A stretch of DNA of 64,000 nucleotides from Candidatus Saccharimonadota bacterium. Its GTDB lineage: Bacteria > Patescibacteriota > Saccharimonadia > Saccharimonadales > Saccharimonadaceae. Below are positions 56,172 to 60,871 of this stretch, piece by piece (positions within the stretch are counted from its first letter, which is position 1; the number at the start of each line of letters is the position of its first letter). Location of the stretch: contig JAACVZ010000002.1 in NCBI GenBank assembly GCA_009992235.1, forward strand, positions 1-64,000, given 5' to 3'. The position numbers and the translations under genes were made by a program. Below the pieces are notes generated by a model. The model had not been told where the DNA came from. It did no database searches and saw nothing but the letters and a program-made list of their open reading frames with translations.

Positions 56172-57584
56172 TTAATCGTCAACCGGAATAATACTCTCCG
56201 CCCACAAATGGAGCTCTTGTAGCATAAATGTCGTTTCTTCACTGGCGCCAACGGATAACTTCTGAATTCGCGCCATAAATGACGGTAGTTGACGCTGCAG
56301 ACGCTTAGCTCGCCACTCCTCCCACGCCTCACGCTCGTCCTGGGCGAGACTTTGCGGATAGTTACGCGCTTTGTAGTGAAGCAGGAGTTCACCGAGCCTT
56401 TCATCGATAAACTCTGGGTGGAGATCTGCCAGCTGAGTGGCGTCGGCACTGCGAATTTTTGCCATTAGCTGACCGTCGGCACTTGGTATGAAACCGTCAT
56501 ATAACTGCGCTTCAGCGTCGGGTGACTTCTTGAACTCTGGTCGATTTTCATATAAGGAACGGATATTCTCTGCAAACGCAGGTGATTCAAGCAGTGTTGT
56601 CTTGTGAGCGGCAATTGTCGCTTCATCGAGCCCTATGCGCGACCAACCATCGCTTTGCGACAAAACACCGAGCGGAGCGACCGCTGGGGAGCGGTTATAT
56701 TGTAGTTCTTTAACCGGTAACGAAACAAAGCCGTCAGCCTTTCGCTCTTCGTACGAGGCGAACATTTGTGCCTCAAGTTCCTTAAGGGATAAGTCCACAA
56801 ATGGCGTCGGGTCATATCGTAAATCGTATACGGCAATATTGCCGTTTCGACTCGACGTTAACGGAAATGCCACCGTTGCACTTTCGTACGTCGAACCATA
56901 GCGGCCGCTAACATACACAAATGGCTGTTTTGTATCGAGATTAACGAGTTTCTTGACCTCGTTCTTGTCACGAAGCTTCAGTAGATATGAAAACAACTGC
57001 GGCTGCTTATCTTTAATAAGCTTCGTCACCGAGATAAGCGCTTCAACGTCGCTAAGTGCATCGTGAGCGTGTTCATGGGCAATACCGTTTTCTTTTGTAA
57101 TATGCTCAAGACGATTAATAGGTTTTCCGTCAACTGTTGGCCATTTGATACCCTCAGGTCGAAGAGCCCTGGTCATGCGCACGACATCAAGCAAGTCCCA
57201 GCGAGACCGACCGTCGCGCCAGCTCCACTCATAGGCATCATAAAAGTTGCGCCAGAACAGCGTTCGAATGAACTCATCGTCAAAATGGATATTGTTAAAC
57301 CCAACCACTATCGTGTCAGGGGTAAATATCTCGTCCATAAGAATTTTTGCAAACTGCGCTTCGGTATACCCCTCTTCGAGAGTCTTTTGAGGTGTGATTC
57401 CGGTCACCATTAAAGCATCAGGGTTCGGAAGCGTGTCGTCGTTTAAGGTTATAAGGATGTTATAAGGGTCGCCTATTGGCTTTAGCTCGGCGTCGGTTCG
57501 AATGCCGGCAAACTGCATAATGCGGTCCTCCCGAGGGTCAAGGCCGGATGTTTCAAGGTCATAAAAGAAAAACGTCTGAGTCAT
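56172..57584 (-). CDS. sbcB: Exodeoxyribonuclease I
   Basis: ExoI digests single-stranded DNA 3' to 5' in recombination and mismatch repair. The DEDD exonuclease motifs are visible: FFYDLETSGLDPREDRIMQF, VGFNNIHFDDEFIRTLFWRN, and HDALSDVEALI near residue 170, followed by an SH3-like and C-terminal helical region. Length 470 equals the E. coli enzyme. A TATAAT (57591-57596) ends 6 nt before the ATG with no ribosome binding site. Confidence 0.94.
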   Translation of the reverse strand: MTQTFFFYDLETSGLDPREDRIMQFAGIRTDAELKPIGDPYNILITLNDDTLPNPDALMVTGITPQKTLEEGYTEAQFAKILMDEIFTPDTIVVGFNNIHFDDEFIRTLFWRNFYDAYEWSWRDGRSRWDLLDVVRMTRALRPEGIKWPTVDGKPINRLEHITKENGIAHEHAHDALSDVEALISVTKLIKDKQPQLFSYLLKLRDKNEVKKLVNLDTKQPFVYVSGRYGSTYESATVAFPLTSSRNGNIAVYDLRYDPTPFVDLSLKELEAQMFASYEERKADGFVSLPVKELQYNRSPAVAPLGVLSQSDGWSRIGLDEATIAAHKTTLLESPAFAENIRSLYENRPEFKKSPDAEAQLYDGFIPSADGQLMAKIRSADATQLADLHPEFIDERLGELLLHYKARNYPQSLAQDEREAWEEWRAKRLQRQLPSFMARIQKLSVGASEETTFMLQELHLWAESIIPVDD

Positions 57585-57596: not shown

Positions 57597-57627
57597 GGTG
57601 AAAAATATTTAATTTCACGGTACCAAA

Positions 57628-57967
57628 AGAAAAACACCCCTCACTAGGAGGGGTAAAACAAGTTGGAAAGGAGGTGCCCAAGAGGCGGAGGACCGATGCG
57701 CTGTACATCGTAATGGTCCTCCGCCCCCGGGCTATTCAGTTGTAGTACGAGATCAGCCGGCGTCAAACGCTTTTGCTTTTCAGCTGGTCAACTCTTGCGA
57801 GTCAAGCATCAGCTCGAAATTAGCGTCTTATAGACTAGCCGAGAGACTCGCCCCTTTTCAGGGATTTTTCATGCGGGCGCACCCTAAAGGGTGCTAACTA
57901 TGTCGCCACTTCATCATGGCTCACCTTCCAGTTTGTTCATCAACGCGCGACAGGTGTCGACGCGAAT
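57628..57967 (-). ncRNA. Candidate ~330-340 nt structured RNA, no known family
   Basis: A perfect consensus promoter and a Rho-independent terminator delimit this transcript; no reading frame longer than ~25 codons with a good ribosome binding site runs through it. The RNA folds as several strong hairpins: GCACCC-TTTA-GGGTGC, ACTC-GCAA-GAGT inside a longer AGCTG/CAGCT stem, an 11-bp stem GGCGGAGGACC/GGTCCTCCGCC with inner GATG/CATC, and TTGG/CCAA closing a loop with CACCTCCTTT. A 7-codon leader-like ORF (MMKWRHS) with a Shine-Dalgarno sequence (GGAAGGTG) lies near the 5' end. I see no tmRNA, RNase P, 6S or SRP landmarks. Confidence 0.6.
57636..57654 (-). terminator. Terminator of the structured RNA
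   Basis: Minus-strand ACCCCTC, loop CTAGT, GAGGGGT followed by GTTTTTCTTTTGG. Confidence 0.85.
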
Positions 57968-57973
57968 GTATGT

Positions 57974-58002
57974 ATTATAGCAAATAATAGCGCGAATGTC
58001 AA
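57974..58002 (-). promoter_or_regulatory. Consensus sigma-70 promoter of the structured RNA
   Basis: Minus strand TTGACA (58002-57997), exactly 17 bp, TATAAT (57979-57974). Both hexamers are perfect. Predicted start about 57967. It overlaps the end of the obg region and is the strongest promoter in this window. Confidence 0.85.
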
Positions 58003-58017
58003 TAGTATTTTATGAAA

Positions 58018-59325
<1,308 letters not shown>

Positions 59326-59384: not shown

Positions 59385-60578
59385 TTAGTGAATGTACATG
59401 TACTGACCGGCGTATGCTGCTGGAAGAATACGACCAGACACCACGTTATTGGCACCACTCGCTCCGAAGGCGTAGTAGTTCATTTCGCTAAGTTCAAGGT
59501 CACCGTTTGGCAAGACCTTCTCGACTATGGCGACATGTCCCCAGTCCTGAATGACTGCTCCAACAGCTGGCGTGCGGTTAACCACATACCCTGCGTTAAG
59601 TGCGTTCCAGGCCCAGCTACCAGCATTACCCCAGTTCGCTCCAATTGGACGACCTAAGTCTGCTCGGCGGTCAAAGGCATAGGCTGTACAGTTGCCCCAG
59701 GCGTAGTTACCGTTGTTCGGCGTACCAGTTCGTATGCGCCAGACGCTTCCGTTTCCAGCACCAGAGCTGTATCCGGTAATGAAGCTGCTTGTTGATGAAA
59801 CAGGTGCAACATACCCAGGGCGCTCGCTAGTTGGTAGCTCACCGTTAGGAATAACAATCTTAAGTCCGGTATTTAAACCGCTAATTTCAAGGTCATTATA
59901 AGTAGTAATAAGCGCCGCGTTGCCCTTATATTTCTCGGCAATCTTCTCGAGTGTATCGCCGTCCTTGACGGTGTAAACAATACCGTTTCGAGGCAAGATA
60001 TCGAGCACTGTTCCCTCCGTGAGGGTATCATCTGTAGTTAGGTCGTTCGCCCAGCGAATTGTCTCAGCAGACAGACCAAACTTACCAGCAACACTTGCAA
60101 CCGTGTCGCCACTGTTAACGGTGTAGGTTGAGATGTTACGAGTTGCGCTTGAAAGCTCAACAATTGTCGGTTTCGAAATAGAACTTCCGTCGTCTCGTGA
60201 AATGTATTCACTTTGAACTTGGGTTGCAATGGCTAACTCGGCGGCGTTACCAGCAACGGCTAGGTCGGTCACAGAAGCAACCGAGGCGGCAATGTTCGCC
60301 GCAACAACATCATTGGCGCTTGGGCGACCAATAGAAGTCGCAGTTCGTGCGACAACACTCTCTGACGCCATAGCCTGTGTTGACTCTTCGGGAGCCTGGT
60401 AGCCAATGGCGATAACAGAAATAAGAAGCGTAAATATACTTGCGTATATGGCAACAGTTGACGATTTGATGCGATCCTTTTTAAGGGTTCGTCTTTGTCT
60501 CGCAGCTATCGGTTGAGGACGGCTCGCGATGGTCCCACCTTGGGGAAGGGTATTCCCCGACGTAATATCATTACGAAT
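59385..60578 (-). CDS. Membrane-anchored peptidoglycan hydrolase: LysM x2 + CHAP; start codon non-canonical
   Basis: Residues after the anchor: two LysM repeats (TYTVNSGDTVASVAGKFGLS...; VYTVKDGDTLEKIAEKYKGN...) and a C-terminal CHAP amidase/endopeptidase domain with Cys in YAWGNCTAYAFDR and His in DWGHVAIVEK. The first in-frame ATG (60371) lies after a transmembrane segment, AIYASIFTLLISVIAIGYQ preceded by a basic stretch, encoded in the same frame. The frame is open back to TAA at 60668 without ATG, GTG or TTG. I take ATT 60578, which has AGGAG 7 nt upstream, as the best guess; ATC 60470 (after AAGGA) is the alternative. Confidence 0.85.
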   Translation of the reverse strand: MRNDITSGNTLPQGGTIASRPQPIAARQRRTLKKDRIKSSTVAIYASIFTLLISVIAIGYQAPEESTQAMASESVVARTATSIGRPSANDVVAANIAASVASVTDLAVAGNAAELAIATQVQSEYISRDDGSSISKPTIVELSSATRNISTYTVNSGDTVASVAGKFGLSAETIRWANDLTTDDTLTEGTVLDILPRNGIVYTVKDGDTLEKIAEKYKGNAALITTYNDLEISGLNTGLKIVIPNGELPTSERPGYVAPVSSTSSFITGYSSGAGNGSVWRIRTGTPNNGNYAWGNCTAYAFDRRADLGRPIGANWGNAGSWAWNALNAGYVVNRTPAVGAVIQDWGHVAIVEKVLPNGDLELSEMNYYAFGASGANNVVSGRILPAAYAGQYMYIH

Positions 60579-60871
60579 TATCGTTCTCCTGCCGCTCGGA
60601 TTACTCTCGAGGGCGTCTACCTTACTTTGTCTTACTCCCCTAAGGGAAAGGATACATGTCGACCGTTATAAATATTATGTTAGCTTTCGGTATCCGTACG
60701 ACATTTGAGGCAGGCGCATATCGCTCTTAACTCCCACTCGCATATATTGCAGGTTCTGAATATCAGATGCAACACTAGTGATAAGAACACGATATGTGCT
60801 CATAGAAGTATAGCAATACGTAGTCGTAGCGTCAACCCTTTTTTACTAGTTATAAAATAATTACCTAAACC
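60579..60871. other. Leader region of the LysM-CHAP gene and intergenic DNA
   Basis: Contains the open but start-less 5' extension of the LysM frame (to TAA 60666-60668), two Shine-Dalgarno-like motifs and AT-rich sequence with TATAAC/TAATAT -10-like hexamers. A structured 5' leader is possible. No protein-coding gene is evident between 60668 and 60871. Confidence 0.5.

Follow-up and report, generated by a model that had tools for sequence, protein, structure and literature searches.

In the window, the whole 64,000-nucleotide stretch of DNA analysed here, the genes for the GTPase Obg and for exonuclease I (SbcB) flank an interval that holds a structured RNA on the same, minus strand (Table 1). 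The organism is, to judge from its sequence, a Saccharibacterium near Microsaccharimonas, and the saccharibacterial assignment is supported by a lysM-TM7 RNA (RF03005, 91.3 bits) at 60586-60715 of the minus strand, upstream of a LysM-domain protein (59385-60371). The genus takes in Candidatus Microsaccharimonas sossegonensis and TM7i, with SbcB identities of 65-71% among congeners.

Table 1. Features of the obg-sbcB interval and its flanks in the window.
Feature	Position	Strand	Remarks
obg (GTPase)	58018..59319	-	upstream flank of the RNA gap
Promoter TTGACA-17-TATAAT with TG extension	57974..58002	-	12/12 consensus matches; in most relatives the gap begins with a promoter of this kind
Structured RNA, predicted transcript	57625..57967	-	about 340 nt; start near 57967, end at the terminator's T-run
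5' hairpin P0	57938..57968	-	minimum free energy fold; relatives have a hairpin 5' of the closing stem (inspection)
Closing stem P1, 5' arm (AACAA-AC-UGGAAGG-U-GA)	57921..57937	-	fold and pairing probabilities
Mini-ORF ATGATGAAGTGGCGACATAGTTAG (MMKWRHS, stop TAG)	57894..57917	-	led by a Shine-Dalgarno (SD) sequence; similar short ORFs in relatives
G+C-rich hairpin P3	57676..57732	-	just 5' of the P1 3' arm; G+C-rich hairpins in the same place in relatives (inspection)
CACCTCCTTTCC string	57665..57676	-	final base of P3, then three bases mostly unpaired, then P1 3' strand
Closing stem P1, 3' arm (UCCUUUCCA-AC-UUGUU)	57657..57672	-	fold and pairing probabilities
Intrinsic terminator hairpin and T-run	57625..57655	-	hairpin 57655-57635
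sbcB (exonuclease I)	56172..57584	-	downstream flank; promoter-like site of its own

The RNA in the window

That an independent structured RNA lies in the obg-sbcB gap is well supported by the sequence. A preliminary description of this DNA had reported a perfect promoter driving a strongly folded RNA of about 330-340 nt, and both hold: the promoter agrees with the consensus at every position, and the predicted transcript folds far more strongly than its dinucleotide shuffles (z = -7.1). It is from the promoter that strong expression of the RNA is predicted. The RNA also appears to be independent of sbcB, as had been proposed, because sbcB has its own -10 in a promoter-like site (GTGAAA-16-TATAAT, 57618-57591) 6 nt 5' of its ATG. 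The window copy consists of the promoter, the 5' hairpin, an imperfect closing stem interrupted by an internal loop, the G+C-rich 3' hairpin, and the terminator, and its boxA-like site is weak (GATGAACAAA, 6 of 10 positions by eye). The sole clear ORF of its interior encodes MMKWRHS, with a start region that lies within the closing stem and a small hairpin; because the SD-like GGAAGGTGA of this ORF sits in the 5' arm of the closing stem, translation would require the stem to open. A second ORF call behind an SD-like sequence at the 3' end of the RNA (38 codons, GC3 0.46) runs across the 3' hairpin, the closing stem, and the terminator and is probably due to chance.

No Rfam family reached its gathering score at the window RNA, a permissive search gave only weak matches at chance level, and the loci of 17 congeneric genomes gave no match. 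The familiar RNAs that the preliminary description had itself named as alternatives (tmRNA, RNase P, 6S, and SRP RNA) have no covariance match at the locus. For a divergent tmRNA, ARAGORN likewise found none in the relatives' loci, and the genome's tmRNA is at C2:12261-12665; the genome's RNase P RNA is at C2:15469-15801 (268.5 bits); and 6S and SRP RNA, with no gathering-score match at the locus, are absent from the permissive list as well. A search of one literature library found nothing on the obg-sbcB locus. DNA similarity searches of the genus and family returned almost exclusively promoter-like matches, and we therefore compared relatives by synteny.

A conserved frame in the obg-sbcB gap

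The order obg-gap-sbcB is present in all 17 congeneric genomes. The gap measures 434-1216 nt in 15 of them and 59 and 118 nt in the two from which the cassette is missing; the 15 long gaps are structured, with mostly unalignable interiors, and most have a consensus-like promoter at the start and a terminator at the end. Elsewhere in the Saccharibacteria, many gaps hold one to three tandem cassettes (e.g., L062, L067, and L103), some are occupied by ordinary genes (L060 and L077), and the gap does not exceed 200 nt in 18 of the 59 loci sampled, which, together with the absence from two of 17 congeners, indicates that the cassette is dispensable. The 118 nt gap (L034) is likely a decayed cassette: no promoter or interior is left, but the last part of the 5' leader and a 3' closing-stem arm persist, as in L035. 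The window RNA shares its position, its strand, a promoter near the obg end, and a terminator before sbcB with the other proposed obg-sbcB cassettes. In a genome-wide hunt for more cassettes, with terminators judged by eye, the relative G002 had a closing stem plus terminator at obg-sbcB alone and the window's own genome, G000, had no other convincing one.

Across the Saccharibacteria the scaffold comprises a consensus promoter, a boxA-like element, a closing stem, and a terminator. In most cassettes the closing stem begins at about +27 to +60 of the predicted start and ends just 5' of the terminator. Among 20 single-cassette loci, taken without selection for a stem, local complementarity was 32.7 between the arms of the same locus and 21.6 between arms swapped with other loci (permutation p = 5e-5, the lowest value that 20,000 permutations allow). 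The test gave no stem for L040, L046, and L072; in L046 the stem is located further in, at +91. The window's own arms scored 26.5, sixth of 20, partly because relatives have the same arm consensus, and arms related to its 5' arm are found in them (e.g., GACAAACTGGATAAAG in L045). A closing stem of the rRNA type is thus a property of the family, with an imperfect copy in the window. Unconstrained duplex energies, tried as a stem test, did not discriminate. Matches of at least 8 of 10 to the boxA-like CATTGACAAG overlap the beginning of the closing stem in 15 of 28 cassettes and occur in 2.7% of shuffles; the count is somewhat generous because the scoring consensus was drawn from the same cassettes.

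This frame resembles that of rRNA transcription units, with a promoter, a hairpin, a boxA-like site, a long closing stem, and a terminator in the order and spacing of the G002 16S gene, in which TTGACAA runs into a long stem, GAAACTTTGACAATTTAGTAGTGCAAACG pairs with CGTTTGCACTACTAAGTTGT, and a terminator lies 3' of the 3' arm. The 16S leader of G000 is nearly identical to that of G002, a comparison of the leader side, the 3' side being off the contig. The cassettes differ from rRNA units in having no rRNA inside and a hypervariable payload, and in the window the boxA is degenerate. The 16S rRNA gene of G002 (G002:C1, about 630074 and about 622495, minus strand) is solitary: it has a closing stem and a terminator to itself, and the 23S gene is several kb away.

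Other known systems share single aspects of this arrangement. OLE, GOLLD, ROOL, and similar large structured bacterial RNAs are long and strongly folded, as are the cassettes, but there is no Rfam match in the 17 congeneric loci and the cassette interior is not conserved. Integron gene-cassette arrays also gather exchangeable short genes at a single site, whereas every obg-sbcB cassette has a promoter and a terminator of its own. A passage of PMC7862264 citing Stringer et al. 2020 states that boxA precedes long noncoding RNAs and CRISPR arrays; the arrays described there resemble the cassettes in that a boxA-type leader precedes a noncoding payload that varies, but the cassettes show no repeats or spacers, have one folded unit per promoter, and have no adjacent cas genes.

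Replacement and coding signature of the payload

In L080 and L085 the scaffold is 83% (5') and 86% (3') identical and sbcB 71%, while the payload is 46% identical, the level of a reversed-sequence control (45%). Across the trio L035-L037, scaffold identity is 73-88%, against 43-60% for the payload. Folding remains strong, with z of -5.8 to -9.5 for 14 cassettes and of -3.8 to -10 for interiors alone.

Several payloads contain ORFs of 26-204 codons with GC3 of 0.80-1.00 and TGA stops, unlike the saccharibacterial genomes that carry them. The 12 SD-led ORFs of at least 25 codons with GC3 of at least 0.75 have, when pooled, GC1 0.59, GC2 0.50, and GC3 0.88, and all 12 stop at TGA; since GC3 was the criterion of selection, independent evidence comes only from the phase pattern and the uniformity of TGA. 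GC3 is 0.47-0.50 in native genes (those of G000 and of the initial 280 kb of G002), 12-14% of which end in TGA, and 0.32-0.60 in obg and sbcB from the loci with payload ORFs. In codon scoring with 40 kb of a Rhodococcus plasmid as the single actinobacterial reference, many payload ORFs, though not all, fell beyond 99% of native 35-codon pieces. The payload ORFs are divergent beyond the range where selection is measurable, and their proteins matched no family in Pfam or PHROG. A phage or plasmid origin was considered for four payload proteins and rejected, no relatives being found in the searched parts of phages, plasmids, and IMG/VR. The payload proteins of L062, L057, and L127 have Sec-like signal peptides (by eye) and short, cysteine-containing mature parts; the two tested matched no known family.

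Shorter reading frames also recur. Basic mini-ORFs like MMKWRHS, preceded by AAAGGA-type SD sequences, encode MKKRHM, MMRKRYI, and MMRRHC in L043, L046, and L048. A second type of mini-ORF ends in SGF(I/E/T) (MFTSGFE, MYTSGFI, MLYWSGFI, MRVIATFNSGFI, and MVRSGFT; the loci are the second cassette of L038, L097, L102, L103, and L058).

Outside the locus, G002 has eight SD-led orphan ORFs with GC3 of 0.85-0.92 against a genome mean of about 0.50 (G002:C1, positions 76728, 77263, 326794, 363654, 375046, 375217, 477460, and 823096; those at 375046 and 375217 form a divergent pair). Several are preceded by strong, A+T-rich promoters and followed, beyond the stop, by G+C-rich hairpins, with no evident closing stem. 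SD-led ORFs with GC3 of at least 0.85 were absent outside the locus in G000.

Possible nature of the cassettes

Many Saccharibacteria appear to carry a strongly promoted, folded RNA in which a frame like that of an rRNA gene is kept and the centre replaced. The scaffold, the closing stem, the turnover of payloads, and the coding signature of the larger payload ORFs are computational results, and we read the obg-sbcB gap as a previously undescribed RNA expression platform. We lean, with modest confidence, towards a family of RNA cassettes that is specific to the Saccharibacteria, is confined to this one site, and combines a 16S-like scaffold with an exchangeable payload; the window RNA would be one of its short members. 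The scaffold of each cassette would copy the order of its own genome's 16S gene: strong promoter, 5' hairpin, boxA-like element, long-range closing stem, and terminator. Such a scaffold could let RNA polymerase traverse a strongly folded transcript by Nus/boxA antitermination and could give a nuclease-resistant RNA, probably trimmed by RNase III. The centre would be a swappable payload of SD-led short ORFs and G+C-rich hairpins, exchanged between species, expressed, and presumably translated into fast-changing small products, plausibly for use in the interaction with the bacterial host; in the window, with an RNA of about 340 nt in total, this payload would be small. If this is true, ultrasmall parasitic bacteria of a large group maintain one dedicated site on the chromosome for rRNA-style RNAs that are rapidly replaced and bear small ORFs of foreign codon usage. 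A role of the RNAs or peptides between epibiont and host would then be directly testable: the site is single and small, and the complete TM7i genome has it (L070).

The gap could instead be a hot spot for foreign or orphan genes of G+C-rich bacteria that have settled behind a strong local promoter and terminator, with the structure incidental and ordinary epibiont proteins as the products. The payload ORFs do have foreign codon usage and no relatives that we found, some gaps are occupied by ordinary genes, and the orphan ORFs of G002, some of them with TTGACT-17-TATAAT-like promoters and G+C-rich hairpins, show that foreign codon usage is not specific to cassettes. We nevertheless consider a hot spot unlikely, as it leaves unexplained the closing stem, the boxA-like element, and the strong folding of the interiors, as well as cassettes such as that of the window, in which no payload ORF exceeds 7 codons. 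That same 7-codon ORF behind an SD-like site, and strong folds throughout the cassettes, would suit a purely noncoding, fast-evolving structured RNA (a regulator, decoy, or structural RNA) with SD-led mini-ORFs arising by chance. This seems more doubtful still, since the payload ORFs of relatives show position-specific coding composition and uniform TGA stops and since K/R-R-H mini-ORFs recur behind SD sequences.

A specific noncoding role was put forward in the preliminary description, which placed a C-rich string identical to the core of the 16S rRNA 3' tail in a loop closed by TTGG/CCAA; a trans-acting regulatory RNA of this kind would pair through an exposed CACCUCC loop with the SD sequences of target mRNAs. 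The string is present (Table 1), and the 16S tail of one relative is GGATTACCTCCTTTCT, so that the anti-SD match for this lineage is ACCTCCTTTC. The loop itself is not borne out, the local hairpin having a pairing probability of 0.0000 and the string pairing about 250 nt upstream instead. The partner of UCCUUUCCA in the ensemble is UGGAAGGUGA (57930-57921), near the 5' end of the RNA (most bases 0.7-1.0; 0.86-1.00 for the string against GGAAGG), and the string is therefore mainly the 3' strand of the closing helix; only A57675, C57674, and C57673 within it are mostly unpaired. Nor is the C-rich motif conserved, as ACCTCC/CCTCCT stands 5' of the terminator in just 4 of 20 relatives and the equivalent helix arm in other loci is TTATCCAACTTG, CTGTCGAATTTTC, or GTACCTAGCTAT. 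Besides the match of ACCTCCTTTC to the 16S tail, this reading draws on a likeness to C-rich-loop small RNAs (suhB/mmgR and relatives), which also have a C-rich stretch directly 5' of the terminator. The Rfam similarity of the window RNA to suhB/mmgR, at the same 3' end, is 21.3 bits against a gathering threshold of 41, by which we rejected that family, and the stretch is predicted to be paired. With the string helical, the local hairpin absent from the ensemble, and the motif rare in relatives, we regard an anti-SD loop as very improbable.

Our preferred reading, a 16S-like scaffold with an exchangeable payload, has a bolder variant to which we give hardly any credence: the RNA would be an mRNA delivered to an actinobacterial host, with the fixed scaffold and hairpins protecting swappable ORFs in the host's codons, the RNA or its product acting in the host, and the window carrying a reduced member with a seven-codon ORF. 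Several relatives have TGA stops and GC3 that reaches 1.0, and these features, the tight folding, a boxA-type leader that fits an RNA untranslated at home, and the growth of cultivated Saccharibacteria mostly as epibionts on Actinobacteria (PMC10633639) agree with delivery, but no export route is known, the window copy has no such ORF, and two payload ORFs with TGA have GC3 of only 0.63-0.67 and another of 0.65 ends in TAG. The similar G+C-rich ORFs of G002 lie outside the locus and without the scaffold, and thus speak more for recent acquisition of G+C-rich genes than for host delivery.
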